Shown: positions 12,915 through 55,406 of the stretch, piece after piece | Position numbering within the stretch: the first letter of the stretch is position 1 | How the letters are laid out: each line of letters opens with the position of its first letter | NCBI GenBank assembly: GCA_018396705.1 | Contig: JAGTQZ010000002.1 | Coordinates: 1-64,000, forward strand | Length of the DNA stretch: 64,000 nucleotides | Direction of reading: 5' to 3' | From: Candidatus Bathyarchaeota archaeon | Lineage (GTDB): Archaea > Thermoproteota > Bathyarchaeia > Bathyarchaeales > Bathycorpusculaceae | Notes under the pieces: generated by a model | What the model was told of the DNA's origin: nothing | Databases searched by the model: none | Seen by the model: the letters and a program-made list of their open reading frames with translations, nothing else | Made by a program: the position numbers and the translations under genes

Positions 12915-13255
12915 CTCTTATAACCTCCTAATGTTTTAGCCTCTTTTTGGTTTTCAAGGGCTAAAATAACGCGTTTTCTATATAAAGTTCAACCAAAATT
13001 TTAAAATTTTTTCATCATAACCACAAATGAAATGTCGCTATTGTATCTGTTTGAAAAGTAAGGCTCTGACGGGCTTTTAAGTTAGGATCCAAAAAAGTTT
13101 TAAGTTTTGCTGTTAACTTTTTGTTGTACGATGATGATATCGAGGTACGCTGAATGGTGATTGGTTTTTCCGCTTCTGAGTAAGAGGGAGGCAAATGATC
13201 ATAGATGTTAATTATTATTACTTGTTTCTAAGAGGTAAAAAGGGGGTGGATAGCA
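12915..13255. other. 341-base gap holding a probable box C/D sRNA
   Basis: The first 200 bases after tRNA-Ser are AT-rich, with no recognisable gene. The box C/D sRNA candidate lies near 13127-13183. A 27-codon frame with a GAGGGAG site begins at 13195, but it runs into the opposite-strand gene and has no recognisable features. Confidence 0.4.
13127..13183 (+). ncRNA. Probable box C/D small guide RNA
   Basis: The boxes appear in the expected order: C box ATGATGA at 13131-13137, a 12-base guide (TATCGAGGTACG), D' box CTGA at 13150-13153, a 4-base gap, a degenerate C' box TGATTGG at 13158-13164, an 11-base guide (TTTTTCCGCTT), and D box CTGA at 13176-13179. Total size is near 55 bases. Box order and spacing match archaeal C/D sRNAs that direct 2'-O-methylation. 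I did not find the guide targets in the 16S gene of this window; they may be in 23S rRNA or tRNA. Confidence 0.55.
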
Positions 13256-13477
13256 TTAGGTTTCCGACGGTCCAGTGACATACGCCCATATACTTACTAA
13301 AACTAGTGTTAGGAATGCACCTGCAAGCCCTGAAAGCATGTACCTTGTAAGCACACCCAGTGACGGTAATAGTGCAATAAGCGCCGGAATCACGTAGGTG
13401 GCTGTTATATCAGCTATGATACCTGCAAAGAATCCAAGAAGCCCAACGAACACGAAAATCTTTAATCTTTCACCCAT
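13256..13477 (-). CDS. Small two-helix membrane protein, unknown function
   Basis: The protein has 73 residues, starting at the ATG preceded by AGGTGG six bases upstream (a GTG three codons earlier is the alternative). It has two hydrophobic helices, roughly residues 8-30 and 45-68, joined by a short loop (LLPSLGVLTRY), and a very short polar tail (GPSET). Glycine and alanine within the helices suggest tight packing. It lies alone between the sRNA candidate and the cdv operon promoter, on the opposite strand. No family recognised. Confidence 0.5.
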   Translation of the reverse strand: MGERLKIFVFVGLLGFFAGIIADITATYVIPALIALLPSLGVLTRYMLSGLAGAFLTLVLVSIWAYVTGPSET

Positions 13478-13604
13478 TCGTTCCACCTAGCCTAGAATTG
13501 ATTTATAAGGCTCTTTTTAGTCTAACTTACAAGTTTTTGTTTATTCCGTCGAAAACAGCAAATAGTTCTTTTCACTAGAAAATTAAAGCTCAAAACTGTT
13601 TCAG

Positions 13605-13630
13605 TCTACATGTATATCTCTACATATATA
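13605..13630 (+). promoter_or_regulatory. Tandem 12-base direct repeat in the cdv operon promoter region
   Basis: TCTACATGTATA (13605-13616) and TCTACATATATA (13619-13630) are two near-identical copies with a 14-base period. They lie 75-100 bases before the first cdv gene. They could be a regulator site or include the TATA box. Only the repeat itself is seen. Confidence 0.35.
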
Positions 13631-13704
13631 CGTGAATATTTCTGGCATATTAACAAGGTATAAGATTTCCATAAGCCCTTAGCCTTCGCTCGGAGGAATC
13701 CAGA

Positions 13705-14367
13705 TTGTCTGAAAGATTTAGTAAACGATGGGATGAAAGACGTGACGAGCAACCGCTTACAGAGCGCATTAAGGAGGCTGTGAGGCCTCCCGGCCCTTTA
13801 AAGCCGAGACTTGACATGGCCATCCGTCGCATAGAGCTCCAGATCCAGAAGCTGGATCAAGCTAGCGAAAGGTTCAGTCAGAGAGACAAGTCCATATTTG
13901 CTAGGATCGTAGACGCCTACACAAAGCATGATATGGCAAGGGCCAACGTTTTCGCCAACGAACTTGCAGAAATAAGGAAAATGGAAAAAATGATAATGCA
14001 GGCTAGGCTTGCCCTTGAACAAATCGTCTTAAGGTTACGAACTGTATCGGAACTTGGAGACGTTGTTTCAACTTTAGGCCCGGCTGTCAGCGTATTAAGA
14101 GCCGTGAAAACTGGAATGGCTAACATCTTCCCAGAAGCCGAGAGGGAGCTGGGGCTGATCGGCAACCTGCTCAGCGGAATAATAGTGGAGGCCGGACAAA
14201 GTACAGGATTATCCATAAACTTTGAAACAGCCAACGAGGACGCTCAGAAAATTCTCACGGAAGCGGCTGCAGTTGCTGAACAGAGAATCAAGGAGAAGTT
14301 TCCAGAACTTCCAGCCGGAATACCGCAAGTGCCACTGCCTGAAAAATCCCCAACAGAAACATCCTAA
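13705..14367 (+). CDS. cdvB: CdvB paralog (ESCRT-III/Snf7-like), short form
   Basis: This 220-residue protein belongs to the Snf7/ESCRT-III-like family that forms filaments during archaeal cell division. The helical core runs from about residue 25 to 185. It includes a basic N-terminal helix (LKPRLDMAIRRIELQIQKLD), the conserved RDKSIFARIVDAYTKHD turn, and ARANVFANELAEIRKMEKMI. The proline-rich tail FPELPAGIPQVPLP looks like a MIM2-type motif that binds the MIT domain of the Vps4-like ATPase. It lacks the winged-helix tail of the second copy, so it corresponds to the CdvB1/B2-type paralogs. The TTG start follows GGAGG by eight bases. It is first in a four-gene operon. Confidence 0.88.
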   Translation: MSERFSKRWDERRDEQPLTERIKEAVRPPGPLKPRLDMAIRRIELQIQKLDQASERFSQRDKSIFARIVDAYTKHDMARANVFANELAEIRKMEKMIMQARLALEQIVLRLRTVSELGDVVSTLGPAVSVLRAVKTGMANIFPEAERELGLIGNLLSGIIVEAGQSTGLSINFETANEDAQKILTEAAAVAEQRIKEKFPELPAGIPQVPLPEKSPTETS

Positions 14368-14385
14368 TAAAATGGAGGAGTACCT

Positions 14386-15102
14386 ATGCTGCAAAATCCC
14401 AACATTTTTTTATCCCTTGGAAAACCCGTTAAAGACGAGTACGGCCGTTTGATTGGAGAAATCGCCTCCTTTGCTGTTAAGCCTAACGGCGGGGTTGAGC
14501 ACGTTTATATAAGGCGCAGCGACGGAAACTTCGTTAAATATCCTGCCTCAAATATAAAATTTGATGGTTCAGAAGTAATCTATCTCTCAGACATAAAAGC
14601 CGAAACAACCGTCTTTTGCAATCAAATCCCACTCATATGGCGTAAAGACCAAGCCTTGAAAGAGCTTTATGCGAAAAAGAAAATTTCACCGGAAGTTTAC
14701 GAAGACCTACATAGCAGTTTTGAAGGCGCCCTAAACCAGCTTAAAACAGAAGCCCAAAACCTCCTAGTAAAGATAGACAAAGAAATTGAAAGATGCGATA
14801 ATGAAATTAAAGAGCTTAACTACGCCTTAGTCCATTTAGAAGTGGAGCATGAAATAGGCGAAATAGATGAGTCCTCTTATCATGCTGCCTTTTCAACAAT
14901 ACAAGAATGTTTGAAACGGGCTAACTCGGAAAAGGCTGACCTTGAAGGTTTGAGAAGTAAGCTCTCAAACATTCTTTTAGGCGAGACTGTTCATGAGCCT
15001 TTAGCTAAAGAAACAGCTGAGGCCCCAGCTCCTGTCACACCAAGTCTTCCAGAACCCCCTGTCATAGTTTATGTGAAGGAAGCAGGCGAATCGAGCATCT
15101 AG
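14386..15102 (+). CDS. cdvA: CdvA cell-division protein
   Basis: The 238-residue protein shows the CdvA plan. An N-terminal PRC-barrel-like beta domain (about 1-75, with GKPVKDEYGRLIGEIASF) is followed by a long coiled coil (about 85-195). A short C-terminal tail with a hydrophobic strand (PPVIVYVKEAGE) could act as the peptide that docks on the CdvB winged helix. CdvA binds membrane and DNA and recruits CdvB to mid-cell. The start is ATG with GGAGGAG five bases upstream. It lies between the two ESCRT-III genes, 18 bases after the first. No membrane span is present. Confidence 0.87.
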   Translation: MLQNPNIFLSLGKPVKDEYGRLIGEIASFAVKPNGGVEHVYIRRSDGNFVKYPASNIKFDGSEVIYLSDIKAETTVFCNQIPLIWRKDQALKELYAKKKISPEVYEDLHSSFEGALNQLKTEAQNLLVKIDKEIERCDNEIKELNYALVHLEVEHEIGEIDESSYHAAFSTIQECLKRANSEKADLEGLRSKLSNILLGETVHEPLAKETAEAPAPVTPSLPEPPVIVYVKEAGESSI

Positions 15103-15148
15103 ACTTCCAACGTAGCGGGCGGAGGGAACTGAAATCAAGAATCCTTTT

Positions 15149-16030
15149 GTGACATCCCCTCCACCACTACGAGAAGTCTTAACTCGGTCAGTGTATAAGC
15201 TGCGGGTTCAACAGCAAAAAGTTGTCCAGGCTTCTTTAAGGCTTAAGGAAAGAGATAAAACCCTTTTCCAGATATGTGTAAACGCTTTAAAAGCAAACAA
15301 TCGTGAAAAAGCCACCATATGCGCCAACGAATTGGCGGAAGTCCGCAGATTAATAAGTTTTCTTCAGCAAGTTGAACTTGCCCTTGAAAGGGTTATTCTA
15401 CGCCTAGAAACAGTGCGAGAATTAAGCGAAATAGTCATAGACCTAAAACCCGCATTGAAAACTCTTCAAAGCGTTTCTAGACAACTATCTGCAATACTGC
15501 CTGAAGTTTCCTCTGAAATAAGCGAAATCAACAATGTTATAGGCGAAACAATCTATTCAACCAAGCTTTCCACGGAAGAAGTTGTAATACCCGTAGATAG
15601 GGTCACACCCGCTGGAGAGCAGATCCTAAACGAGGTTGCAACCCTACTTGAAAGAAAGGTTGCTGAAAAACTTCCAGAACCGCCCGCTACGTTGGAAGCG
15701 CGCAAGCTTAAAGAAGCTAAAGCTGAAATCAAGCAGATGGTAGCCATAGCAACTTCTTGCTCCCAAGCTGTAGATAACGAAACAATTGAGGAGGGTGAAC
15801 ACAGCTCCGAAAATCTGATCTCCATTAGGAAGGCGGAGATTCAGGAAATCAGTCTAAAGGTTGGCAATTCTTCTCTTGAAGAAGCCCTCTTAGACTATGT
15901 TAGGCAAAGTGGCGGCGAAATAGACCTAATTCGCTGTTCCCGCGATTTGGGGGTTTCTTATGAAGAGGTGGAGAGGGCTCTTCAAAGTTTGGGAGCCAAA
16001 GGTAAGGTGAAAATTGAAGTTAAAAGGTGA
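15149..16030 (+). CDS. cdvB: CdvB (ESCRT-III/Snf7-like) with C-terminal winged helix
   Basis: The 293-residue protein contains an ESCRT-III helical core (about 15-170) parallel to that of the upstream paralog, including RDKTLFQICVNALKANN and CANELAEVRRLISFLQ. A variable linker (about 175-235) follows. The C-terminal winged-helix domain (about 240-293: SLEEALLDYVRQSGGEIDLI, then EEVERALQSLGAKGKVKIE) is the part that binds CdvA in Sulfolobus. A linker motif (KLPEPPATLE) may bind the CdvC MIT domain. The GTG at 15149 is the only ordinary start nearby. A strong GGAGGGA at 15121-15127 instead sits six bases before an ATC codon in frame. The next gene overlaps its stop. Confidence 0.9.
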   Translation: MTSPPPLREVLTRSVYKLRVQQQKVVQASLRLKERDKTLFQICVNALKANNREKATICANELAEVRRLISFLQQVELALERVILRLETVRELSEIVIDLKPALKTLQSVSRQLSAILPEVSSEISEINNVIGETIYSTKLSTEEVVIPVDRVTPAGEQILNEVATLLERKVAEKLPEPPATLEARKLKEAKAEIKQMVAIATSCSQAVDNETIEEGEHSSENLISIRKAEIQEISLKVGNSSLEEALLDYVRQSGGEIDLIRCSRDLGVSYEEVERALQSLGAKGKVKIEVKR

Positions 16031-16035
16031 AGCCA

Positions 16036-17202
16036 ATGGAAGCTTCACAGGAACTTGAAAGGTCAGCTACAAACTACGCTATGGAGGCTGTTCGTCTTGA
16101 CAAGCAAGGTGCGAAGGGTATGGCTATAACCATGTACCAGAAAGCCATAGAAACACTATTGAAGCTTGTGCAATTATACCCCGACTACAGCCTAAACAAA
16201 GTTTACATTCAAAGAGCTATAGCCTACCAAGAGAGGATAAAAGTGTTACAGGGAGCCATTGCCCCTTCTGGACCGCAAATAGAGTCAAAAAGTGTTGAAG
16301 GAGCAAAACTAGGTGAAGAAAAAAAGGCCAGCTACGAAGACTTGATCATTAAGGAGAAGCCGAACGTTCGATGGGAGGAAGTGATAGGTCTTGACACTGC
16401 AAAAAAGGCGATTAAAGAAGCTATAATCTATCCGGTTCAAAGACCCGACTTGTTCCCCCTAGGCTGGCCTAGGGGCATATTGCTTTTCGGTCCACCTGGT
16501 TGTGGAAAAACTTTGTTAGCTGCTGCAGCCGCTACTGAAATTGACGCTGTATTTATTTCAGTGGACGCTGCTTCTATAATGTCTAAGTGGTTGGGTGAAG
16601 CGGAGCAGAATGTCGCTCGTCTCTTCGAATCCGCACGGAAATCTGCTTTAGAAGATAAGAAGCCTGCCATAATTTTCATAGATGAGCTGGACTCTCTCAT
16701 GGGTAAACACTCCAATGAAGTTGGCGGTGAAGTTCGTGTAAGAAACCAGTTCTTGAAGGAAATGGATGGCATAATTGATAAGGGCAAGAACCTCCACGTC
16801 TATGTTATCGGTGCAACAAACAAGCCTTGGGACTTGGATTGGCCGTTCATTAGACGCTTCCAGAAACGTATTCTCGTGCCCCTTCCGGATCATCATGCCC
16901 GCTTAATGATGTTTAAACATTACACAAGCCATCTAACTTTGGCTCCAGACGTGGATCTCCACGAGTTGGCAAGACTTTCCGAAGGCTTTTCTGGAAGCGA
17001 CATAAAAGACGTCTGCCAAGCAGCTCACTTAAAGGTTATAGGCGAATTCTTTGAGTCTGGACAAGCTGCCAATAAGCTTGCAAAACCTAGAGCTTTAAGA
17101 ATGAGTGATTTCAGGCAAATCTTGGAAGAGCGGAAGCCAAGTGTTTCCCTTGATATGTTAACTCTTTACAACCGCTGGTTCGAAGCCTTCAAAGCCCTTT
17201 AA
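16036..17202 (+). CDS. cdvC: CdvC, Vps4-like AAA ATPase
   Basis: The 388-residue ATPase remodels and disassembles ESCRT-III filaments during division. An N-terminal MIT domain (about 1-75, three helices including AMEAVRLDKQGAKGMAITMY) is followed by a linker and one AAA module. Walker A is GPPGCGKT, Walker B is IIFIDELDSL, and the second region of homology ends in FIRRFQKR. The C-terminal part matches the Vps4 oligomerisation helix region. The ATG at 16036 has AGGTGA six bases upstream; a GTG at 16027 overlaps the previous stop. It is the last gene of the operon, followed by a long inverted repeat. Confidence 0.95.
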   Translation: MEASQELERSATNYAMEAVRLDKQGAKGMAITMYQKAIETLLKLVQLYPDYSLNKVYIQRAIAYQERIKVLQGAIAPSGPQIESKSVEGAKLGEEKKASYEDLIIKEKPNVRWEEVIGLDTAKKAIKEAIIYPVQRPDLFPLGWPRGILLFGPPGCGKTLLAAAAATEIDAVFISVDAASIMSKWLGEAEQNVARLFESARKSALEDKKPAIIFIDELDSLMGKHSNEVGGEVRVRNQFLKEMDGIIDKGKNLHVYVIGATNKPWDLDWPFIRRFQKRILVPLPDHHARLMMFKHYTSHLTLAPDVDLHELARLSEGFSGSDIKDVCQAAHLKVIGEFFESGQAANKLAKPRALRMSDFRQILEERKPSVSLDMLTLYNRWFEAFKAL

Positions 17203-17330
17203 AAGGAGCGTCCTTCAAGTGGAAAGGTTTGGAGAACTTTGGCTCTTCTCTATTTTTTGCAAGCTCTCCTTTCTCCCCTTCTCCCCCTACGGAATCTCCA
17301 AACCCCACAAATGTTGGAAGGGCGCTCTTT
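17201..17330. repeat. Long imperfect inverted repeat after cdvC
   Basis: The left arm (about 17202-17235) and right arm (about 17295-17330) pair over some 33 positions with a few mismatches. Both contain AGCGxCCTTC and end in TTTGGAGA (seen as its complement TCTCCAAA on the right). The central 60 bases are pyrimidine-rich. It starts at the cdvC stop codon. It could act as a transcription end or RNA stability hairpin, as a structured RNA, or be the remains of a miniature inverted-repeat element. Confidence 0.5.
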
Positions 17331-17409
17331 AAATAAGTTCAGCCTAACCTCCTCTCTTTTTCTTATAAACTCTTCGGCTGTCGCAGACAACAAAAGATGT
17401 GTGGAGGTT

Positions 17410-17889
17410 TTACTTAATCATCTCCTCGTCGAATATTGCTTTGAAGGTTTCCTTGCTTAGATGTAGCTTTTCTGAGAGGTTCTTAACCCACCTTATATAG
17501 CTTCTGAAAATGTTTTGAAGGATTTCCACTTTCTCCTTGTCTGAAAGCTCTTTCTCCTCAGCTATTAATAGGGCGAACCATTTGCCAATATCCGACAGTC
17601 TGTAGGCTTTAACCCATACTGTTCGCCCTTCATGCTCAGCTTTCTCCATGCTTTCTGCTAAAACACCAAGCTCTGTCAAAGTTTTAAGATTCTCTATTAT
17701 TGTTTTGTTGGAGTAGGCTAACCTCTTAACAAGGTCTTTCTGGTAAATTTTGTTGGCTATCCCTTGTCTAAGAAAGAATCTTAAAATTTCGAGGGAGGCC
17801 TTTGAACCGAAAATCGCGCTTAAAATTTTGTCTTTCTGTTCTGCTGGTAGGAAAACAACGTATGGATGAGATTCTGAATGAAAATCCAA
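17410..17889 (-). CDS. Winged-helix transcription regulator
   Basis: The protein has 159 residues. A winged-helix domain occupies about 25-105: [15 protein letters not shown], then [29 protein letters not shown] with a wing ending in [11 protein letters not shown]. The C-terminal third is helical and probably dimerises. The start is TTG, supported by GAGGGAG six bases upstream. It is divergent from the nucleotidyltransferase cluster and overlaps the upstream part of that frame, so it is a good candidate for its regulator. It also faces the end of the cdv operon. The ligand is unknown. Confidence 0.7.
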
Positions 17890-17973
17890 ACTGTACTCCC
17901 TCTAAAATCATTTGGGATTAGTCGTCTAATATTGCTTTTCCTCATCGCTAGACTTTTAAACAGCCTGTTAAAA

Positions 17974-19020
17974 GTGTATCAAAGGTGTTCAGAAACGGCT
18001 GACTGGAAACCTTTAGACGGCGACACTTTCATAACGCGGGAAGGCTTCATCTTAAACGTTTTTGGGTATGAGCATCCAGAAAACCGTGTTTTTGCTTTCC
18101 TGAAATATATTCCATCCCGTTTCAAAGAGCTTTTCCATGTTCGCATGTTAGAGAGAACTTGGCGGCTTGGTGGCGCGGAGCTTTTTCGGGCTGAAAAACT
18201 TTACACGGCCAAAAACTATCAGACCTTCCTTGAAGTTTTCCGAAAAAATTTTTCAGAATACGTTTACTACTGCCCTTTTAGGCGAAAAGAGGTCATCAGC
18301 GCTCCTCTGGATCATGTTGTTGAGGTTTTTGTTCCAAGAGATCGCTTAAAAGCCTTAATGGAAGCCAGGGAAAAAGATGAATTGCAAGAGTTAACCCTCG
18401 AGTTTGTCCGCCTTGTCTCCGACGAGGCTAAAGTACCGCTTGAAGATTTTGGGGTTCATGGTTCTATAGCTCTAAACATGCATTCAGTAGAATCAGACAT
18501 AGACATAGTGGTTTACGGAAGCCGAAACTTCCGTCGTGTCGAAACAGCTATCGAGAAACTTGTCCAAGAAGGCGTATTAACCTACATTTTTAACAATCGT
18601 TTAGATGCTGCAAGGCGGTTTAAGGGACGATTCAAAAACAAGATTTTCATGTATAACGCTGTCCGCAATCCAGAAGAAGTCACAGCCAAATACGGAGAAT
18701 TCCGGTATATGCCTATAACTCCGGTAAAATTAAAGTGCAAGGTTAAAGACGACAGCGAAGCCATGTTCCGTCCAGCCGTCTACAAAATTGAGGGTGTTTC
18801 ACTGCTTGATGGCTTCACGCTTTCAAGGGAAATGGCTCCCGAAGTTGTTGTATCTATGATTGGATGCTACAGAAACGTTGCTAAAAAAGGACAGTGCATA
18901 GAAGTTTCCGGAATGCTTGAATGCGTGGAGAACATAACGACCGGCAAGGTCACTTATCAAGTTGTTGTCGGCTCTGCGGAAAGCGAGGAAGAATATATTT
19001 GGCCAATCCAGCTGAATTAA
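17974..19020 (+). CDS. Predicted nucleotidyltransferase (paralog 1 of 3)
   Basis: About 348 residues in three parts. The N-terminal domain (about 1-130) opens with [19 protein letters not shown]. The middle is a polymerase-beta-type nucleotidyltransferase core with [13 protein letters not shown] and SDIDIVVYG, giving the Gly-Ser and the two metal-binding aspartates of the family. The C-terminal domain begins [17 protein letters not shown] and ends in a beta-rich segment ([16 protein letters not shown]). It resembles the archaeal predicted nucleotidyltransferases grouped as COG1665 (from memory). The GTG at 17974 avoids the overlap with the divergent regulator. Substrate unknown. Confidence 0.65.
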
Positions 19021-20093
19021 GGCTTAGAGACCGCGATGCTATAGTCACACGGGAAGGCCTGATCTTCCGTGTTTTCGGCTACGTGCATCCATCGGAAAGC
19101 TACATTTGTGACTTAGAGTATGCGCCCGCATCTCTCTTTAAGTCCACTAACCCAAAAGCCTACCGGACAGATGGCAGACATGTCTTCTACAAGTTTTACG
19201 AAGATGAGGGCTGGCATTTTATCCAAAAACGTTTTCCACAACACATGGTTCTCTACAAGCCGCTGGGCAAAAAGGTTGTAGGCATCAATAAAGAAGACAT
19301 CATTGAAATCCGCAAGCCGGAACATGCACTAAAAAGGTTAGCGGAAAGGAAGCCAAGAGACGAGTTGCTTATGGCATTGCAGAAGGTTTTAGATGCCACC
19401 GTTTTTTCTCTTGGGCTTTGCTTGGATGATTTCGGGGTTTTCGGCTCACTGCTTCATGGTTTTTACCATCCGAAGTTTTCAGATATAGATATAGTAGTTT
19501 ATGGCAGAGAAAATCTAAAGAAAATTCGTAAAATTCTCCATGATCTGTACAGTGATGGCGACTCATGTTTTTCCAACGAGTTTATCGACAACTCAGCCAT
19601 TCAAGGAAAGGTTTGGCGCTACAAAAATCTGACACCCCAAGAATTTGTTTGGCATCAACAGCGCAAATTAATTTATGGAGTTTTTCACGACGAGGCTTCT
19701 GGACGCAGCATAAAAGTCGAGTTTGAACCAGTGAAAAGCTGGAGCGAAATTCAAGGCGATTACAGTGAAACCAGAAAAATTGAGTGGGTGAGCTGGGTTA
19801 AAGCAGTCCTACGGATAAAAGATGATTCAGAAGCCCCTTACATGCCGTCAGTCTACCAAGTTGAGCCGATCCAAATCTTAGATGGACCACATGTTGGTAA
19901 CTTGGAAAGAGTTGTCTCCTACCTTGAAGAGTTTAGAATGCAGGCGTGGAAGGGCGAAACTGTCTATGTGGAGGGAAACCTTGAAAAAGTTGAAACACAA
20001 AACGGTGATTGCTTCCACCAGATAACCTTGACCTACGGTCCACGTTACTATGAGCAAGTTATTAAAAAGGCTTCAGATAAAAGTCTGGCATAA
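18999..20093 (+). CDS. Predicted nucleotidyltransferase (paralog 2 of 3)
   Basis: About 364 residues with the same three-part layout as its upstream neighbour. The N-terminus has [19 protein letters not shown], the catalytic core has [14 protein letters not shown] and SDIDIVVYG, and the C-terminal part has [16 protein letters not shown] followed by a beta-rich end. A TTG start with GAGGAA eight bases upstream overlaps the previous stop by 22 bases, so the two genes are translationally linked. The region after the core ([10 protein letters not shown]) offers a third acidic residue. The paralogs are well diverged, so the duplication is old. Confidence 0.65.
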
Positions 20094-20149
20094 GTGATGT
20101 AAGCCATGCCTTCACGTTTACCTTAATGCGCTATTCCGTCAAGGACTTG

Positions 20150-21175
20150 TTAGGAATTTAACCTCTTAAGAACCATGAAGTCTGAGGGCCTATTTCCAAT
20201 TAGCAGCCTAAAATGTTCACTGTTGCTTCTGCAGTCTGTCACATGTTCAATTTTGCCTTGCGCTACAATTGTTTCGCTTTTTCTGGCTTGTTCACAGAAT
20301 CTGCCCCGAAAAGAAACTATTTCATTTATTGGTTGAAGTTTTGGCCCTTCAATAATTTTGACAGCTTCAATCTTATATGTGCATGGTGTAAAAATGGCTT
20401 CTGAATCATCTACAACTAAGGCTTCAATCTTTGCGTAGCCACAGTTCTTATAGTGGACATCTCCATATCTTTCATCTATTTCGTCAAAATCCTTCACGAA
20501 ACGGATGAAAAAGTCCCTTCCCATAAACTTTCCCTGAAAACTTTTTCTGGATTCCACCATTATGAAGTCTTCGAAATTCATGAAGGTGTCTCTCGAACGG
20601 AAATCGAAAAGCTTCCGCAAATCCTCGAGGCTATAAGACTGGAAAGGGGTGTCCTTTTCTTTTAGGAGTGTTTTCAAGGTTTCATGCACTTTTCGACAGT
20701 TTTCCACACCATAGACAATTGGGTCAATATCTGATGTTGCGGTGTGTAAGCTAGCCAAGACAGAACCGGAGACTCCAATTTTGCACCATGGCACGTTTGC
20801 TCTTTCCTTCAAAATTTCAACGCAATGGAGGGCCGCACTCTCTAGCTCGTCGAGATTTCGCTTCTTTCTAAGTTTTTCCAAAAAACTAATCGGATTGTAA
20901 ACCCTTTTAACTTTGTTTAAGGAGACTTCGCAGATCTTTTCGTCGAAAACTGGGTCGTAGACAAGGTATTCCGGAAAATTTTTTTCAAGAAAAACAAAAC
21001 GTTCTGATAGACTATATACTTTTTCGTATTTACGTATTCCAAGTTTACGGTGGCCCTTCGCGTCTGGTATGAAACGTGGAAAGGCCACAATCTTGTCTAA
21101 TGGATGAACCAGCCCTTTCACGTCGAAAATTATGGATTCAATTGATTCTATTAGAAAACCTTCAATGGGCTGCAT
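20150..21175 (-). CDS. Predicted nucleotidyltransferase (paralog 3 of 3)
   Basis: The 341-residue third copy is convergent with the other two. It keeps KGLVHPLDKIVAF where the others have GY-HP, a catalytic core IGVSGSVLASLHT plus SDIDPIVYG, and a C-terminal domain with VDDSEAIFTPCTYKIEA. The N-terminus lacks the TREG motif, so it is the most divergent copy. It starts at ATG 21175 with AAGGA just upstream and overlaps the end of the ECF-S-like gene by 14 bases. The two are probably co-transcribed. Activity is inferred from the intact Gly-Ser and Asp-x-Asp motifs. Confidence 0.62.
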   Translation of the reverse strand: MQPIEGFLIESIESIIFDVKGLVHPLDKIVAFPRFIPDAKGHRKLGIRKYEKVYSLSERFVFLEKNFPEYLVYDPVFDEKICEVSLNKVKRVYNPISFLEKLRKKRNLDELESAALHCVEILKERANVPWCKIGVSGSVLASLHTATSDIDPIVYGVENCRKVHETLKTLLKEKDTPFQSYSLEDLRKLFDFRSRDTFMNFEDFIMVESRKSFQGKFMGRDFFIRFVKDFDEIDERYGDVHYKNCGYAKIEALVVDDSEAIFTPCTYKIEAVKIIEGPKLQPINEIVSFRGRFCEQARKSETIVAQGKIEHVTDCRSNSEHFRLLIGNRPSDFMVLKRLNS

Positions 21176-22004
21176 TTTCCTTCTTCAAAGCTTCTTTAGC
21201 ATTTTCCTCTATTATAGACTTTTCAGCTATGATCCATTCTGTGTTCTTTAAAGCTCTAACAAGTGGAACCACGATTATTGTTGCAACTATGGCTTGGGCC
21301 AGTCTTATAGCCGGGTAGATGAACGGGCTTATGAGAAAGTAGAAACGGACAGCCTCTAAAGGAAGACTGAAAATGTATTCGTAAACTATTGGAAGGGCGA
21401 AGGCATTGCATCCCCACATGTTGTCTGCTTGATTTCCAATGAAGGTGAGTAGGAAAAACAGGACGGGGAGACCCTTTGGGCTGGAAAGGCGTTTAGCAAA
21501 TTTCACAACTGGAAGAATTAGAAACAATGCAATCACTTTGTCCCAGAGAACCGCAGCTGGCACATAGTAAATTGGTATTGTATAGGCGTTTTCAGGACTA
21601 AATGGATCAAAAATTTGGCTATATCCAGTTAATGGTTGTGAGGGAGGCGAAAGAAGGAACACTAAAATTAACACTCCGAAAACGGCGAAAGCCCAGCGCC
21701 ACTTTCTGTAATAAATTAAACCGACTACTAGGGCATTTATGGGAGGAGACAAAAGAAAAGGAGCACCAAACGGACTTACGCTGCTTGGGGGTAAAATCCA
21801 AGACACAAATGCTCCTAGAAAAGCTGCAAAAGCGCCAAGATATGGACCTAAAATTATTCCGTAAACTGAGGCGATTAATGCTTCAAGTTTTATTTTTAGG
21901 TCCGGGAGCCCTATTGCAGGAATATATGGTGATACTAGAGATAAGATGTAGTAAAGGGCTGCGAAAATGGCTACCAACGCAATGTGTCGTGTTGAAATTT
22001 TCAT
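21162..22004 (-). CDS. ECF-transporter S-component-like membrane protein
   Basis: The 280-residue protein has about six to seven membrane helices. The opening ISTRHIALVAIFAALYYIL and the pattern of helices around LKIKLEALIASVYGIILGP resemble substrate-binding S components of energy-coupling-factor transporters for vitamins. No EcfA or EcfT genes are in the window, so it would share a module encoded elsewhere. It is divergent from the CitG-fwd genes and overlaps the third nucleotidyltransferase. The substrate is unknown; the position next to C1-cofactor genes makes a pterin, vitamin or metal plausible. Confidence 0.6.
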   Translation of the reverse strand: MKISTRHIALVAIFAALYYILSLVSPYIPAIGLPDLKIKLEALIASVYGIILGPYLGAFAAFLGAFVSWILPPSSVSPFGAPFLLSPPINALVVGLIYYRKWRWAFAVFGVLILVFLLSPPSQPLTGYSQIFDPFSPENAYTIPIYYVPAAVLWDKVIALFLILPVVKFAKRLSSPKGLPVLFFLLTFIGNQADNMWGCNAFALPIVYEYIFSLPLEAVRFYFLISPFIYPAIRLAQAIVATIIVVPLVRALKNTEWIIAEKSIIEENAKEALKKENAAH

Positions 22005-22100
22005 TTAGAGACATCCTGTGTATTTTTGGTAATTGCTGTGTATTTTTTTACACAACACTAATAAGTCTTTCCGTGCAAAATGACTATAAAGGTGCATTAA

Positions 22101-23054
22101 TTGCAAACCTTTGACTCTGATAAGGCTACACGCATTGCCCAATGTTTAGAACTAGCCATACTGTTGGAGGTTAGCGCCGACAAACCCGGAAACGTTAACC
22201 TTGTAGTAGGCTTCGAAGGCACTAATCATGTGCATTTCTTGACCTCAGCAGTTGCGGCAGCTCCCCTTTTTAGGCTAGCTGCTGAAAGGGGAATGCGTGC
22301 TTCTCGAGGCGAAATCAGCCTAAGCGAGGTTGGTGTTGGAACAATTATCCGCGATTGTATTGCAGAAATAAGTAGTTGGCAAAGTGGCGGAAACACTTTG
22401 CTCGGCACTGTTTTGTTGTTTGTGCCTTTAGCTGCAGCCGCTGGCATGACGCCGATGGAAAAAGGTGTATTTGAAATTCCAGAGTTGAGGCGGAACCTGA
22501 AATTAGTTGTAGAGGCAACGACGCCTGAAGATGCCGTCGCCGTCTATGAAGCGGTTAAAATTGCTAAGCCCAGCGGGCTTGGAAAGGCGCCGGACTTAGA
22601 TGTTAATGATCCCACATCAATAGAGAGGATTCTTCATGAGCGAATTACCCTTTACAAGGTTTTCCAAATAGCGGCATCCTATGACATGGTTTGCTCGGAG
22701 TGGGTTAACAATTACCAGGTAACCTTTGACTTTGCCTATCCAAGCTTGGTGCGGTGGCTTAAAGAGGATGGTGATATAGGGAAGGCTGTGGTTCATGCTT
22801 TTCTTGAGGTTTTGGCAACATACCCTGATACATTTATTGCCAGGAAAGTTGGCATGCAGAAAGCCAGTGAAGTTTCAGCCATGGCTAAAGAAGTTCTGGA
22901 AAACGGCGGCTTAAAAACCTCTGTTGGAAAAGAGAAACTGCGACTGTTTGACGCTGTTTTACGGTTGGACGGCAACAACCTTAACCCAGGCACGACGGCT
23001 GATATAATTGCCACCGCTATTGCATTGGCAGTCCTTAACGGCTATAGGCCATAA
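22101..23054 (+). CDS. CitG-family protein (triphosphoribosyl-dephospho-CoA synthase-like)
   Basis: The 317-residue protein matches the CitG/MdcB family. It has EVSADKPGNVNL in place of the usual EVxxxPKPGxV, then WQSGGNTLLGTVLLF, and further conserved Asp/Ser-rich helices (DMVCSEWVNNY). Classical members make the citrate lyase prosthetic group from ATP and dephospho-CoA. No citrate or malonate lyase genes are in sight. Instead the gene sits 150 bases before fwdD, so a role in C1-cofactor metabolism is more likely. It starts with TTG behind AAGGTG. The exact reaction here is unknown. Confidence 0.8.
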   Translation: MQTFDSDKATRIAQCLELAILLEVSADKPGNVNLVVGFEGTNHVHFLTSAVAAAPLFRLAAERGMRASRGEISLSEVGVGTIIRDCIAEISSWQSGGNTLLGTVLLFVPLAAAAGMTPMEKGVFEIPELRRNLKLVVEATTPEDAVAVYEAVKIAKPSGLGKAPDLDVNDPTSIERILHERITLYKVFQIAASYDMVCSEWVNNYQVTFDFAYPSLVRWLKEDGDIGKAVVHAFLEVLATYPDTFIARKVGMQKASEVSAMAKEVLENGGLKTSVGKEKLRLFDAVLRLDGNNLNPGTTADIIATAIALAVLNGYRP

Positions 23055-23206
23055 AGGCCCTGCAATACAAGATAGGTTAGGTTCTATTGGCCGCTTCAGC
23101 GGCAAAAACAATGTTTTCTCGTGGCTTAGTGAAGGGATAAATTAATTAGGATTAAGGTAACTGTATGTAGTCTTCAAGAGCTGAATAAGTGGTTCGAGGT
23201 TAGCCG

Positions 23207-23614
23207 ATGGGTGAAAAACCTAAACTGAAGGTTACACTGTTAACGGGGCGCACAATAGAGCAAGGTGTTGGAAAAGAGCTTGGAAAAGCTACAAAAGAAT
23301 ATGCAGAAAGCGTCTCCATATGCTATATGGATCCTGAAGACATGAAAAAGCTCGGCGTAAAAGATGGAACAAACATTCAAGTTTCCACGGCTTTTGGTTC
23401 GGTTGTAGTGAAAGCCAAAAAATCTTTGAGGGCGCCCCACCCCAGCGTTATATATATTCCCTACGGGCCTTGGGCGAACGCTATTGTGAATCCTGAAACT
23501 CACGGTATCGGCATGCCCTCTTTTAAAGGTGTGCCTGCCACCGTAGAGCCTGCCCCAGACAAGCCTGTTTTAGGCTTGGAAGAACTCCTTAAACAACAGT
23601 TTAGGAAGGGTTAG
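23207..23614 (+). CDS. fwdD: Formylmethanofuran dehydrogenase subunit D
   Basis: The 135-residue protein corresponds to the molybdopterin-dinucleotide-binding domain (double-psi barrel) that completes the catalytic subunit of the Mo/W formylmethanofuran dehydrogenase. Characteristic stretches are the repeated MDPEDMKKLGVKDG, GSVVVKAKKS and the late IPYGPWANAIVNPET with HGIGMPSFKG. It is first in the tight operon fwdD-fwdB-fwdA-fwdC-mch, with the next start two bases after its stop. It acts in the cytoplasm, reversibly reducing CO2 to formylmethanofuran with the other subunits. Confidence 0.95.
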   Translation: MGEKPKLKVTLLTGRTIEQGVGKELGKATKEYAESVSICYMDPEDMKKLGVKDGTNIQVSTAFGSVVVKAKKSLRAPHPSVIYIPYGPWANAIVNPETHGIGMPSFKGVPATVEPAPDKPVLGLEELLKQQFRKG

Positions 23615-23616
23615 AA

Positions 23617-25071
23617 GTGCAGGTTGTCAAAGCCGTAACGTGTCCGGTTTGTGGAAGCTTATGTGACGACATAGAGCTAACCGTAGAAAACGGCCAGATT
23701 GTTAAGGTTAAAAACGGCTGCGCCATGTGTGAAGCCAAATTCCTGGGCCACCGTGGTGAGCATCGTATACTAAAGCCTCTGATTAGAAAGAACGGTGAAC
23801 TTGTTGAGACAACTCTCGAAGAAGCTGTTAAGCGGGCTGCAGAAATTCTTGCAGGTGCCAATTATCCTGTGCTTTACGGTTGGAGCAGCACAAGCTGCGA
23901 AGCCACAAGTGTAGGCATAGAACTTGCCGAAGAAGTTGGCGGCGTCATAGACAACACGGCAGTTGTCTGCCACGGCCCATCACTTTTAAGCGTTCAAGAC
24001 GTCGGCATATCATCGTGCACTCTAGGGCAAATCCGTCATAGAGCCGACTTAATCATTTATTGGGGATGCGACCCATGGAGCGCCCATCCAAGACATATTG
24101 AACGTTACACAGCCTTCTCTGAGGGCAGATTCGAGAAAAGTGCATGGCGAAACTACGTGGCCAAAATTAAAGCTCTCGTGGGTCGGAAGAAAATTCAAAG
24201 CACTGTTAAAAGGCTCGTCTTAAAAAAACCTCCGGAAATTAAAGCCCGACTAGAGCCTACTTTTATTCCCTCCATCATGAAGGAAGGCCGAAAACTCATA
24301 GTTATCGACGTTAGACGTACAAAAACAGCGGAGATGGCTGACTTCTTCGTCCAAGTGGAGCCCAACAAAGACTACGAGCTTCTGCAGGCTTTTAGGGCTC
24401 TAATTCGCGACCAAGAGCTTGAAGTCGACAGCGTCGCAGGTGTTCCCGTCCAATATTTGGAGGAGGTTGCCGATGCTATGGTTAACTGCGACTTCGGCGC
24501 GCTTTTCTTTGGGCTAGGCTTAACCATGAGCGGCGCCAAACTAAGAAATATTGACGCTGCACTTTCGCTGGTCCGCGATCTAAACATGCGAACAAAATTC
24601 ATCATAATGCCCATGCGAGGCCACTTCAATGTAACTGGCGCTAACACGGTGTTCACTTGGCAGACAGGCTACCCATACGCCGTAGACTTTTCACTGGGCT
24701 ATCCGAGGTATAACCCTGGCGAAACATCGGTTGTTGACGTGTTGCTGCGAGGCGAGTCGGACGCCGCCCTGATTGTGGCTTCTGACCCCGTCTCTAACTT
24801 TCCAAGAAAAGCCGCCGAACATCTTGTTAAGAATCCGCTTATCTACATCGGCCCACACATGGACGTTACAGCTCAAGTGGCAGATGTCGTGATTCCATCT
24901 GCTCTTGTAGGCGTTGAGGCTTCTGGAACAGCTTACCGTATGGACCACGTGCCCATACCACTCAAAAAAGTTGTAGACCCGCCAAAAGGAGTTTTGCCTG
25001 ACGAAGAAATTTTGACGAGAATTTTGGCGGAGGTTAGAAAAATAAAGAGCGAAAAGGCGGAGGCGGCCTAA
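23617..25071 (+). CDS. fwdB: Formylmethanofuran dehydrogenase subunit B (catalytic)
   Basis: The 484-residue catalytic Mo/W subunit reduces CO2 to formate at the bis-pterin site. An N-terminal iron-sulfur motif is visible as C9, C12, C16 plus C35/C38. The metal ligand is C118 with H119 (VVCHG), the same place where known Fwd/Fmd enzymes have Cys or Sec, so this is a Cys enzyme. The rest is the formate-dehydrogenase-like pterin-binding fold (YWGCDPWSAHP, DPVSNFPRK). The GTG start follows GGAAGGG. The length is slightly above the common 430-440 residues. FwdA starts within two bases of its stop. Confidence 0.97.
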   Translation: MQVVKAVTCPVCGSLCDDIELTVENGQIVKVKNGCAMCEAKFLGHRGEHRILKPLIRKNGELVETTLEEAVKRAAEILAGANYPVLYGWSSTSCEATSVGIELAEEVGGVIDNTAVVCHGPSLLSVQDVGISSCTLGQIRHRADLIIYWGCDPWSAHPRHIERYTAFSEGRFEKSAWRNYVAKIKALVGRKKIQSTVKRLVLKKPPEIKARLEPTFIPSIMKEGRKLIVIDVRRTKTAEMADFFVQVEPNKDYELLQAFRALIRDQELEVDSVAGVPVQYLEEVADAMVNCDFGALFFGLGLTMSGAKLRNIDAALSLVRDLNMRTKFIIMPMRGHFNVTGANTVFTWQTGYPYAVDFSLGYPRYNPGETSVVDVLLRGESDAALIVASDPVSNFPRKAAEHLVKNPLIYIGPHMDVTAQVADVVIPSALVGVEASGTAYRMDHVPIPLKKVVDPPKGVLPDEEILTRILAEVRKIKSEKAEAA

Positions 25072-25072
25072 A

Positions 25073-26770
25073 ATGGAGCTTTTAATAAAAAACGGGTTTG
25101 TTTATGATCCAATTAATGGTGTTAACGGCGAAAAAATGGACATAGCCATAAAAGACGGCAAAATAGTGGAAAAAGTTAATGAACGTGAAGCCAAAATAAT
25201 AGACGCCTCCGGCATGGTCGTCATGCCCGGCGGCATAGACATTCACAGCCACATAGCTGGCGGAAAAGTAAATGCTGGAAGGCTATTGCGTCCAGAAGAT
25301 CACTTCAAGGACGTTGAACGGAAAACCGCTGTCACAAGGTCTGGGGTGGGCTATTCTATTCCATCCACGTTTACAACAGGTTACCGTTATGCAAGGATGG
25401 GCTGGACAACTGTTATGGACCCGGCCATGCCGCCGTTAGAGGCGAAACATACCCATGAAGAGCTCAGTGACACCCCCATTATTGATAAGGCTAGTTATCC
25501 GCTTCTGGGCGACTGGTGGTTTGTGCTTGAATATCTGCGTGACGGCAAAATCGAGGAGTGCGCCCGCCACGTGGCTTGGATGATCAAAGCGACGAAAGGC
25601 TATGCCATAAAACTTGTGAATCCAGGCGGGCTTGAGGCTTGGGGCTTCGGCCGCAACGTGGAAAGCATAGACGACCCAGTTCCTCATTTCGGAATTACGC
25701 CTCGTGAAATTATCCGCGGCTTATGCAAGGTTAACAAACTTCTAAACTTGCCTCACACGATTCACGTTCACACCAACAATTTAGGCAAACCCGGCAACTA
25801 TATAACTGCTTTAGAGACAATGAAATGCGTTGAGGACTTGGCGGAGGACGATAAACCAGCCATCCATATAACGCACTGCCAGTTCTGCGCCTTTAAGGGC
25901 GACGATTGGCGAACTTTCCAGTCTGGAGCCGAAGAAATAGCCAACTACGTTAATGCCCACTCTCATGTTACGATGGACATGGGGCAAATTATTTTCACGG
26001 ACACCACAACCATGACGGCTGATGGTCCCTTCCAGTACACGCTTTACATGCTTAGCGGTAACAAGTGGACAAACCATGATGTGGAAACAGAGACAAGCGC
26101 TGGAATAGTTCCCTTCCATTATAAGCGGAAAAGCTATGTCCATGCAACACAATGGTCCATAGGCCTTGAACTCGCCTTGTTAATCAAGGATCCATGGAAA
26201 ATCCTGATGACGACAGATCACCCCAACGCTGGGCCTTTCATTGCTTATCCGCGGATTGTTGCTTGGCTAATGAGCCGAAAAGCCAGAGAAGCCACCCTCA
26301 AAAAGATTAACCCCAAAGCTAGGAGTAGAAGCCTCTTACCATCAATAAAACGTGAATTAGACTTTTACGAAATAGCCGTAGTAACTCGCGCCGGGCAGGC
26401 CAAAGCCCTAGGCCTAAAAAGCAAGGGCCATCTCGGTGTGGGAGCAGACGCGGACATAGCCATATACAATTTTAATCCGGAAACCATGGATCCGTCAAGG
26501 AAGTATAAGGCTGTTAGACGCGCGTTTAAGCGGGCTGCCTACACCATAAAGAGTGGACAAGTGGTTGTTAAGGACGGCGAAATCCTAAAGCATGTAGACG
26601 GCGCCACCATGTGGATTGACGTGCAACTATGCGAGCCATGTGAGATAGAGCTAAATGAAAACATGAAAAGACGTTTTAAGGAATACTGGACTGTAGAGTT
26701 TGAGAATTATCCAGTTTCAGAGGATTATTTGGCAATTTCCCGTCCAATACCCGTGAAGGCTGATGTGTAA
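25073..26770 (+). CDS. fwdA: Formylmethanofuran dehydrogenase subunit A (amidohydrolase)
   Basis: The 565-residue amidohydrolase joins formate to methanofuran to give formylmethanofuran. Metal and catalytic residues are visible: H58 and H60 in DIHSHIAGG, K180 in GYAIKLVNPGG as the likely carboxylated Lys, further His in IHVHTNN and HITHCQF, and the catalytic Asp in TTDHPNAGP. It has the family's usual length and no truncation. The ATG overlaps the fwdB stop region, and its own stop overlaps the fwdC start, indicating tight co-translation. Confidence 0.97.
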   Translation: MELLIKNGFVYDPINGVNGEKMDIAIKDGKIVEKVNEREAKIIDASGMVVMPGGIDIHSHIAGGKVNAGRLLRPEDHFKDVERKTAVTRSGVGYSIPSTFTTGYRYARMGWTTVMDPAMPPLEAKHTHEELSDTPIIDKASYPLLGDWWFVLEYLRDGKIEECARHVAWMIKATKGYAIKLVNPGGLEAWGFGRNVESIDDPVPHFGITPREIIRGLCKVNKLLNLPHTIHVHTNNLGKPGNYITALETMKCVEDLAEDDKPAIHITHCQFCAFKGDDWRTFQSGAEEIANYVNAHSHVTMDMGQIIFTDTTTMTADGPFQYTLYMLSGNKWTNHDVETETSAGIVPFHYKRKSYVHATQWSIGLELALLIKDPWKILMTTDHPNAGPFIAYPRIVAWLMSRKAREATLKKINPKARSRSLLPSIKRELDFYEIAVVTRAGQAKALGLKSKGHLGVGADADIAIYNFNPETMDPSRKYKAVRRAFKRAAYTIKSGQVVVKDGEILKHVDGATMWIDVQLCEPCEIELNENMKRRFKEYWTVEFENYPVSEDYLAISRPIPVKADV

Positions 26771-27597
26771 TGAATGTGAATCTCTACCCCATAAAAGAGT
26801 TCAAACTACCTATTGTGGCAGAATGCATAAACCCAGACGTTTTCAAAGGTAAAAGCCTAAAAGAAGTCGAAGCCCTAGAAGTCTGGGAAGGAAACAAACA
26901 GAAAAGACTAGGCGAACTCTTCAAGGTGGAAGGGGAAAACGTTGAAGGCGCCAAGGAAGCCCCTGTGATAACTGTTCATGGCGATGTTAGCCGTGTTAGG
27001 CGAATAGGCGCCGGCATGAAAAGCGGCGAAATCGTTGTTAAGGGCGACGCTGGTATGCATTTAGGCGAGGAAATGCGGGGCGGAAAAATAACAGTTTACG
27101 GCAACGTTTTAGGCTGGGCTGGCTCCATGATGAAGGGCGGCACAATAGAGATTTACGGCAACGCTGGCGACTATTTGGGGTCTCCTTACAGGGGCAGTAC
27201 TGAGGGAATGAAGGGCGGAAAAATAATAGTGCATGGAAACGTCGGCCGTGAAGTCGGAGCCCACATGAAAAAGGGTATAATCAAAATCTATGGTTGTGCT
27301 GGACAATTTGTGGGCTTCCGCATGAGAGGCGGCACAATCTACGTGCAGAAAGATTGCGAAGCGAGAGCCGGTGCATGTATGGTGGATGGTACCATAGTGG
27401 TTGGTGGTCACATAGAGTCAGTCATGCCCACTTTCACTATTGAAGGTTTAAGGAAGAAAGTCAAAATCGAGGAAAGCGAAGTTGTCGAGACACCCTTCTA
27501 CCTTTTCATAGGCGATTTGACTGAAAATGGTCACGGAAGGCTTTTCGTCGCCAAAGGACCGAATCCTCATCTAAACCATTATGAAAGATTTCTTTAA
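26770..27597 (+). CDS. fwdC: Formylmethanofuran dehydrogenase subunit C
   Basis: The 275-residue subunit is built of a right-handed beta helix with GxxGxxG-type repeats (from about residue 75 to 210, for example MKSGEIVVKGDAGMHLGEEM and MKGGKIIVHGNVGREVGAHM). It is related to the C-terminal domain of glutamate synthase. In Fwd complexes it supports the assembly and does not carry the active site. Start and stop overlap with neighbours by single bases. It is followed 16 bases later by mch. Confidence 0.96.
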   Translation: MNVNLYPIKEFKLPIVAECINPDVFKGKSLKEVEALEVWEGNKQKRLGELFKVEGENVEGAKEAPVITVHGDVSRVRRIGAGMKSGEIVVKGDAGMHLGEEMRGGKITVYGNVLGWAGSMMKGGTIEIYGNAGDYLGSPYRGSTEGMKGGKIIVHGNVGREVGAHMKKGIIKIYGCAGQFVGFRMRGGTIYVQKDCEARAGACMVDGTIVVGGHIESVMPTFTIEGLRKKVKIEESEVVETPFYLFIGDLTENGHGRLFVAKGPNPHLNHYERFL

Positions 27598-27613
27598 GTA
27601 GAGAGGGCAAATC

Positions 27614-28576
27614 TTGTCGAAAACCGTTTTAAGTGTAAATCGTTTGGCTTGGAAACTTTTAGAAAAGCTATGTGAAAACCCTGAATATTATGGTGTAAAA
27701 GTTGAAAATAGAAACGGCGCTATAGTGGTGGACGCAGGCATAAACGCTAGAGGCGGCTTTCAAGCTGGCAAAATAATAACGGAAATCTGCATGGGTGGAT
27801 GCGGAAAAGCACGTATAAGCTGTAGCCGATATGGCGAACTTGAGCTTCCGACAATATTTGTTTACACAGATCATCCGGCTATAGCCACTTTGGGTTCACA
27901 GTTTGCGGGTTGGAACATCAAGAATGGCGATTACTCTGCTATTGGCTCCGGACCAGCTAGAGCCATAGTCCAAAAACCGAAGGAGATCTATGAGCGTTTG
28001 GGCTACAAGGACGAATGCGAGAAAGCTATAGTAGTTTTGGAAACCGACAAATACCCGCCGGAAACGCTCATAGAGCGCTTAGCCCGCGACTGCAAAGTGG
28101 AAAAGAAAAATCTAGCTATAATATTGACGCCGACAGCAAGTGTCGCCGGCGCCACTCAAGTGGCTGGCAGAATTGTTGAAACTGGGATTCACAAGCTTGA
28201 GAAGCTTGACCTTGACCCTAAAATGATTCTTCACGCTTGGGGGTACGCTCCCATACCGCCAACTCACCCAAAGTTTATTAAAGCCATGGCGAGAACTAAT
28301 GATGCCATCCTTTATGGCGGAGTAACCTATTATGTAGTGGATTGTGAAAACGAGGAGGCCTTGGCGAAAACTGTGGAAAAGGCACCATCAAAGGCCTCTG
28401 AGGACTATGGTCATCCATTTCTTGAAATTTTCAAGGCAGCAGGCTACGACTTCTATAGGATAGATCCAAATATTTTCGCGCCAGCAGTTGTGATTGTTAA
28501 CAACTTGAGAACCGGAAACACTTTCAAGGCTGGAGACATAAACCTGAACGCTTTGAAAGAATCTTTTGGTTTCTAA
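27614..28576 (+). CDS. mch: Methenyl-H4MPT cyclohydrolase
   Basis: The 320-residue enzyme interconverts N5-formyl- and N5,N10-methenyl-tetrahydromethanopterin, a step of the archaeal methyl branch of the Wood-Ljungdahl pathway. Diagnostic stretches are GINARGGFQAGKIITEICMG, the conserved LPTIFVYTDHP, and SGPARAIVQKP. It starts with TTG after GAGGG. Being in one operon with fwdDBAC places CO2 activation and the cyclohydrolase together. The formyltransferase (ftr), mtd/mer and fwdE/F/G are not in the window. Confidence 0.97.
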   Translation: MSKTVLSVNRLAWKLLEKLCENPEYYGVKVENRNGAIVVDAGINARGGFQAGKIITEICMGGCGKARISCSRYGELELPTIFVYTDHPAIATLGSQFAGWNIKNGDYSAIGSGPARAIVQKPKEIYERLGYKDECEKAIVVLETDKYPPETLIERLARDCKVEKKNLAIILTPTASVAGATQVAGRIVETGIHKLEKLDLDPKMILHAWGYAPIPPTHPKFIKAMARTNDAILYGGVTYYVVDCENEEALAKTVEKAPSKASEDYGHPFLEIFKAAGYDFYRIDPNIFAPAVVIVNNLRTGNTFKAGDINLNALKESFGF

Positions 28577-28583
28577 TCAACCA

Positions 28584-29195: not shown

Positions 29196-29310
29196 TTATC
29201 TCACACTGTCCAATCGCTTTAAATCGCTAATTATTTAAGAGTAACTACTCAAAAATGAGTATTCAAGAAATAAATATAATTTCTGCCCATTCAATTGTTG
29301 GGAAAACGAT

Positions 29311-53910: not shown

Positions 53911-55406
<1,496 letters not shown>

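Follow-up and report, generated by a model that had tools for sequence, protein, structure and literature searches.

Nucleotidyltransferases encoded beside a CitG-type triphosphoribosyltransferase in Bathyarchaeia are candidate enzymes for the tail of a tetrahydromethanopterin-type cofactor

In bacterial malonate decarboxylase and citrate lyase systems, a CitG-family gene stands alongside a nucleotidyltransferase (NT; MdcG or CitX) able to use the triphosphoribosyl product, which arises when CitG displaces adenine from ATP and leaves an alpha-linked ribosyl-5-triphosphate on a hydroxyl. In coenzyme F420 synthesis, CofC and CofD equip a deazaflavin with a ribityl-phosphodiester-hydroxy-acid tail. 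In methanopterin the ribityl chain bears an alpha-ribofuranosyl-5-phosphate that forms an ester with alpha-hydroxyglutarate, and the methanogen cofactor has this full tail; the tetrahydro form is the one-carbon carrier of methanogenesis, methane oxidation and the archaeal Wood-Ljungdahl pathway. Known genes of tetrahydromethanopterin biosynthesis include those for MptE, dihydromethanopterin reductase and beta-RFAP synthase, the first committed enzyme. The bacterial cofactor of M. extorquens, as described in PMC8141765, has neither the phosphate nor the alpha-hydroxyglutarate. Here we analyze a 64,000-nucleotide stretch (the window; contig JAGTQZ010000002.1, positions 1 to 64,000 of the forward strand, assembly GCA_018396705.1) from a Candidatus Bathyarchaeota archaeon, in which three NT genes (NT1, NT2 and NT3) lie with genes for a winged-helix regulator, an energy-coupling factor (ECF) transporter substrate-binding component (ECF-S), a CitG-family protein and enzymes of one-carbon metabolism.

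A first-pass annotation of the window had proposed three diverged paralogous NTs, and these genes were confirmed together with the motifs quoted for them. The three are true paralogues, since pairwise BLASTP gave E-values of 9e-32, 2e-41 and 4e-31 (27-28% identity) with homology across most of their length. PF01909 was over its cut-off for NT1 and NT2 and reached 13.2 bits against a cut-off of 21 for NT3; no NCBIfam family matched. The window's own genome yielded no member beyond these three, and the family was found in 52 of 60 relatives (three matches in 33 of them, four in 15, five in one, two in two and one in one). A tree of 157 NT proteins was built with a quick method, supported by the Shimodaira-Hasegawa-like approximate likelihood ratio test (SH-aLRT) only and containing flagged long branches; the clades holding the window's three proteins comprised 45, 46 and 50 rows, each genome contributing roughly one protein to each clade. 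Judged from this tree and from gene order, each of NT1, NT2 and NT3 is an ancient and linked orthologous group, and inheritance in the relatives is vertical and syntenic. The NT1>NT2 tandem occurs in 57 of 79 named loci and the full NT1>NT2> <NT3 arrangement in 41, a contig edge cutting many of the others. In relatives these are not single-copy genes standing apart from one another, an arrangement that the first-pass annotation had named as counting against its reading. Each group has its own invariant residues, which bears out the earlier suggestion that the three copies serve different roles. A fourth, older type, for which we introduce the label NT0, was read from the tree and from its more even profile scores; in Ignisphaera, a Desulfurococcaceae genome, Theionarchaea, Aenigmatarchaeota and the Asgard Baldrarchaeota and Borrarchaeota it stands either on its own or next to NT3. 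An apparent NT2 fusion was dropped, as its open reading frame (ORF) ran through a masked stretch.

Membership of the PF01909 superfamily would suit a minimal-nucleotidyltransferase type of toxin-antitoxin or defence module, but this explanation is disfavoured and very improbable: inheritance is vertical and syntenic in 52 of 60 relatives, the NTs are three-domain proteins, no HEPN partner was present among the neighbours scanned, and the best PADLOC match of the NTs had an E-value of only 0.0019.

The GS motif was present in all 141 rows of the three groups and DxD in 140 (one NT2 row is gapped there); each was kept in 15 of 16 outgroup rows, and all 193 proteins of the named set, some of them also among the 141 rows, show the GS...DxD pattern. 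The third catalytic position, which corresponds to the third Asp of Pol beta, lambda, mu and Cid1, was located from the offsets at the ends of the alignments between NT2 and these enzymes, using their catalytic residue numbers. At this position NT2 has a glutamate conserved in 46/46 rows (Glu241). NT1 has Met in 28 of 31 rows (a count that excludes L082, L085 and L109, three NT1-clade rows in neither group); NT3 has Phe or Tyr in 45/50 with Arg or Lys two residues on in 50/50; and NT0 has Ser in 10/11 with His or Asn two on in 11/11. No acid was seen there in the 31 NT1, 50 NT3 or 11 NT0 rows. The first-pass annotation had named loss of the catalytic carboxylates as evidence against its reading; the two DxD aspartates are kept, and the absence of the third carboxylate from NT1 and NT3 was unforeseen. 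A missing third acid need not mean an inactive enzyme, because the single NT in the four genomes of family f30 also has none, and another residue might serve in its place in NT1, NT3 and NT0.

AlphaFold2 models of NT2 and NT1 reached mean confidence scores (pLDDT) of 95.2 and 95.7. With VIA-align, the middle third of both models matched TUT7, Cid1 and Pol lambda (NT1: Z 8.7, 90 residues, 3.1 A; NT2: Z 7.4, 89 residues, 2.9 A), and the C-terminal third matched SSB-type OB-folds (Z 8.4 for NT1 and 7.3 for NT2). As modelled, NT1 and NT2 possess a nucleotidyltransferase fold; the N-terminal domain was barely probed by VIA-align and we claim no fold for it. Foldseek against the PDB gave no match at E ≤ 0.001, and sequence searches of the NTs against solved structures yielded nothing useful. 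GS, DxD and the catalytic fold are common to the NTs and to TUT7, Cid1, Pol lambda and CCA-adding enzymes, whereas the NTs have their own N-terminal domain and a C-terminal OB-fold, and the third carboxylate in NT2 only. An RNA-directed system, in which the enzymes add to tRNA or mRNA 3' ends and the OB-fold binds RNA, would draw on exactly these structural matches, but the Z-scores (best 8.7 and 7.4) are no higher than common arrangements give, recurrent RNA-processing neighbours of the NTs were not seen, and in different families the NTs are associated with genes for CitG and methanopterin; we consider such a system improbable.

The NTs are associated with CitG in both gene content and gene order. 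The window's CitG protein scored 235.8 bits against PF01874 (gathering score 27; E 9.6e-70). Of 300 Thermoproteota genomes, 134 had both NT and CitG and 144 had neither, while 17 had NT without CitG and 5 had CitG without NT. With one genome taken per family, an NT lay ≤5 kb from CitG in 15 of the 33 families that had listed coordinates for both genes, compared with about 0.5 expected. The single NT of family f30 adjoins CitG, and neighbour clustering placed CitG next to NTs in Bathyarchaeota, Ignisphaera and one Aenigmatarchaeota contig. By analogy with citrate lyase and malonate decarboxylase, CitG and the NTs could load a protein with a prosthetic group made by CitG, with the cofactor genes mere neighbours; the CitG family membership and the bacterial pairing of the CitG product with a transferase that spends it are in keeping with this. 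The archaeal CitG, however, scores 46.9, 46.2 and 37.0 bits where the NCBIfam CitG/MdcB equivalog models call for 272-283, Pfam and NCBIfam gave the NTs no MdcG or CitX match at E ≤ 1, and the recurrent neighbours are methanopterin and other one-carbon cofactor genes, not acyl-carrier proteins, and we therefore give the prosthetic-group explanation little credence.

The first-pass annotation had left the substrate among tRNA, a protein, an antibiotic-like molecule and a cofactor, stating that nothing decided between them. This no longer holds, because the neighbours (CitG, Fwd, Mch, Ftr, MptE and beta-RFAP synthase) favour tetrahydromethanopterin over tRNA, protein or antibiotic. In the same 300 genomes, beta-RFAP synthase (threshold E ≤ 1e-8, our choice, weaker matches being counted as absent) occurred with CitG in 109 and without it in 10, CitG occurred alone in 30, and 151 had neither; against NT the counts were 111 with both, 8 with beta-RFAP synthase only, 40 with NT only and 141 with neither. 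In Bathyarchaeota archaeon B71_G16 (L180), one cluster carries NT0, NT3, CitG, DUF447, MptE, a dihydromethanopterin-reductase-like flavoprotein, DUF1464, beta-RFAP synthase and the pterin-binding DUF4346, so that known biosynthesis genes are contiguous with NT and CitG; the same first seven genes (NT0 to DUF1464) are contiguous in L187, also a bathyarchaeal contig, where beta-RFAP synthase is not in view. In L201, L202, L203 and L212, CitG, beta-RFAP synthase and MptE lie within a single region (similarity clusters, Pfam-checked for L202), and Ftr borders NT0 in L055, L153, L165 and L179 (clustering, Pfam-checked for L055). DUF1464, which is butyrate-kinase-like, adjoins NT and CitG in L204 and L205. 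Taken together, these gene associations make membership of the NTs in the tetrahydromethanopterin cofactor pathway well supported. The MptA profile (TIGR00294) was uninformative, with matches in 2 of 60 relatives and a likewise negative Sulfolobus acidocaldarius control.

We found no NT or CitG step of this pathway, and no paper tying CitG or nucleotidyltransferases to methanopterin, in the open-licence literature of PubMed Central (PMC); nor did any paper there pair DUF1464, DUF447 or methanopterin with one another. DUF447 and DUF1464 recur in CitG/NT/RFAP-synthase clusters (L180:13102-13722, L180:15384-16652 and L204:8265-9179) and are for this reason candidate methanopterin biosynthesis genes. 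A 2011 study (PMC3087415) lists three methanopterin genes and estimates seven unknown methanopterin proteins.

Reading reactions, substrates and partnership from the family, its orthologous groups, residue conservation, co-occurrence and gene clusters, we lean slightly towards a model in which the NT family and the CitG-type triphosphoribosyltransferase assemble or re-assemble the tail of a tetrahydromethanopterin-type one-carbon cofactor. In the first step, a hydroxyl of the pterin ribityl chain would attack C1' of ATP on CitG, with adenine leaving and inversion giving an alpha-ribosyl-5-triphosphate on the pterin. An NT would then bind this triphosphate as it would an NTP, through GS, DxD and metal, and link its alpha-phosphate to a hydroxy-acid, which in methanopterin is 2-hydroxyglutarate, so that pyrophosphate is released and a ribosyl-5-phosphodiester remains. 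NT2 would be the copy with the full catalytic triad, and NT1, NT3 and NT0, with GS, DxD and other conserved third-position residues, would be partner subunits or act on other acceptors. CitG chemistry combined with an NT would, from the families and the structure of the cofactor, give exactly a methanopterin-type tail. The fuller proposal goes further: that CitG and the NT family are the missing methanopterin-tail enzymes, ribosylating from ATP instead of phosphoribosyl pyrophosphate (PRPP) and then forming the phosphodiester directly from an enzyme-made triphosphate; that the triplet is a multi-subunit or multi-acceptor tail synthase; and that Bathyarchaeia bearing ECF-S salvage a precursor and rebuild the tail. 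We regard this whole set of claims as plausible but short of probable.

Within the same pathway the NTs could instead take another step and activate the hydroxy-acid (for example phospho-hydroxyglutarate with an NTP, as CofC does), with CitG or DUF1464 perhaps performing the transfer. The gene-cluster evidence for this is identical, F420 synthesis uses such an activation, and the butyrate-kinase-like DUF1464 stands beside NT and CitG in L204 and L205. Yet activation would be superfluous, since CitG-family products already bear a triphosphate, and no CofD-like transferase occurred among the cluster genes scanned; the NTs also gave no CofC or CofD match in Pfam or NCBIfam, and the folds and donor of those enzymes differ. 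We judge hydroxy-acid activation unlikely, while allowing it some weight.

Several points weigh against assembly of the tail by CitG and the NTs. One phosphodiester calls for one NT, not three or four. Older labelling work reportedly gave PRPP as the ribosyl donor. The OB-fold of the NTs could indicate nucleic-acid binding. The co-occurrence tests ignore phylogeny, and the Fisher and binomial values are overstated, since they treat genomes or families as independent. In the phylum of a Theionarchaea genome (G336), CitG was present in 103 of 115 genomes and a real NT in 2 (a third match had E 5e-4), and CitG therefore does not need this NT; the different side chain reported for the Pyrococcus cofactor would be in keeping with such an absence. 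The window's own genome is without a clear beta-RFAP synthase (best E 5.6e-6) and was counted as an NT-only case. Haloferax volcanii carries both CitG and a member of TIGR00144 (the RFAP-synthase family), and PMC8305020 describes this organism as a folate user.

The ECF-S gene bears on how genomes without beta-RFAP synthase might obtain the cofactor; the cut-off for this enzyme is passed by only 11 of 60 relatives and is missed by the window's genome. By PF07155 (E 2.2e-8, over the cut-off) the window's protein is an ECF-S of the general type, and it scored 46.2 bits against a cut-off of 60 for TIGR04518, a folate-family S component. Neighbour clustering showed ECF-S adjoining NTs in several phyla, and on an Aenigmatarchaeota contig genes for the ECF ATPase and T components also lie beside the NTs. 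ECF-S stood beside NT3 in 32 of 38 scored genomes without RFAP synthase and in 3 of 9 with it, a count that excludes G017 and G021 (contig ends beside NT3) and genomes without a fetched NT3 region, including the RFAP-positive G039 and G046, and in which G030, G051 and G057 were scored ECF-minus from limited flank; by genus the figures were 25/31 and 1/7, with six genera lacking both. Because ECF-S beside NT3 tracks the missing RFAP synthase, ECF-S probably imports a pterin or arylamine precursor in genomes without this enzyme, the window's included. In two Asgard contigs (L179:6307-7746 and L181:3825-5237), a gene next to those for ECF-S and NT joins a relative of the winged-helix protein to a PfkB-family kinase; this fusion is possibly a vitamin kinase of the same salvage route.

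The host genome measures 1.7 Mb, and those close to it carry the names Candidatus Bathyarchaeota or Bathyarchaeia. Gene order runs from a Cdv/ESCRT (endosomal sorting complex required for transport) set through winged-helix (divergent), NT1, NT2, NT3 (convergent), ECF-S, CitG, fwdD, fwdB, fwdA and fwdC to mch (Table 1). The divergent regulator and overlapping ECF-S gene of the first-pass annotation were both found, and the shared pathway it drew from them agrees with the synteny in relatives, where the winged-helix gene is a recurrent cluster member.

Table 1. Genes of the NT cluster and its flank, with window coordinates
Feature	Positions	Strand	Description
Winged-helix regulator	17410..17889	-	TTG start; divergent from NT1; HTH_27 just under cut-off
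NT1	17974..19020	+	N-terminal domain, pol-beta-type NTase and OB-fold; GS, D175, D177, Met226 at third catalytic position
NT2	18999..20093	+	Domains as NT1; GS, D162, D164, Glu241 (third carboxylate), Glu243; overlaps NT1
NT3	20150..21175	-	Same family as NT1 and NT2; convergent with NT2; GS and DxD, Phe223/Arg225 around third position
ECF transporter substrate-binding (S) component	21162..22004	-	Overlaps NT3 by 14 bases; PF07155
CitG-family ATP:(X) triphosphoribosyltransferase	22101..23054	+	PF01874
fwdD, fwdB, fwdA, fwdC (formylmethanofuran dehydrogenase)	23207..27597	+	Pfam domain order
mch, methenyl-tetrahydromethanopterin cyclohydrolase	27614..28576	+	PF02289 E 8.7e-121

Two starts are set later than those of the longest ORFs: NT1 likely begins at the GTG at 17974, directly 3' of a TATA-like ACTTTTAAA, and NT2 likely at the TTG at 18999, inside the end of NT1. 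The winged-helix protein scored 22.0 bits against a cut-off of 22.2 for Pfam HTH_27, and its NCBIfam Lrs14/Sta1 matches were far under cut-off. The fwd operon shows the Pfam domains Molydop_binding, Molybdopterin, Amidohydro_3 and GXGXG in order, which we take to correspond to subunits D, B, A and C. An Rfam scan of 13000-30000 returned no element at threshold, and a sigma-70-type promoter scan gave a result below chance.

Upstream, positions 13705-17202 hold two Snf7/CdvB-like genes (the second assigned by similarity alone) around a gene for a CdvA-like coiled coil, with an MIT-AAA (CdvC/Vps4-like) gene coming next, and an ESCRT-type division cluster of this kind adjoins the NT cluster in many family members. 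In relatives a MobB-like gene (~184 aa) lies between the Cdv AAA ATPase and winged-helix genes; no such ORF is present at 17203-17409 of the window. Just after mch and convergent with it, a second ECF-S-like gene occupies 28584-29195 (PF12822 slightly under cut-off). A complete archaeal 16S rRNA gene at 53911-55406 accounts for a local rise in G+C.

As far as open-licence papers tell, the late steps of tetrahydromethanopterin synthesis are without assigned genes. A genetic assignment of the kind proposed here would make tail assembly directly testable, above all in archaea with one NT beside CitG, and it names two further candidate genes, DUF447 and DUF1464. It also suggests that many Bathyarchaeia may depend on others for the precursor of a central cofactor.

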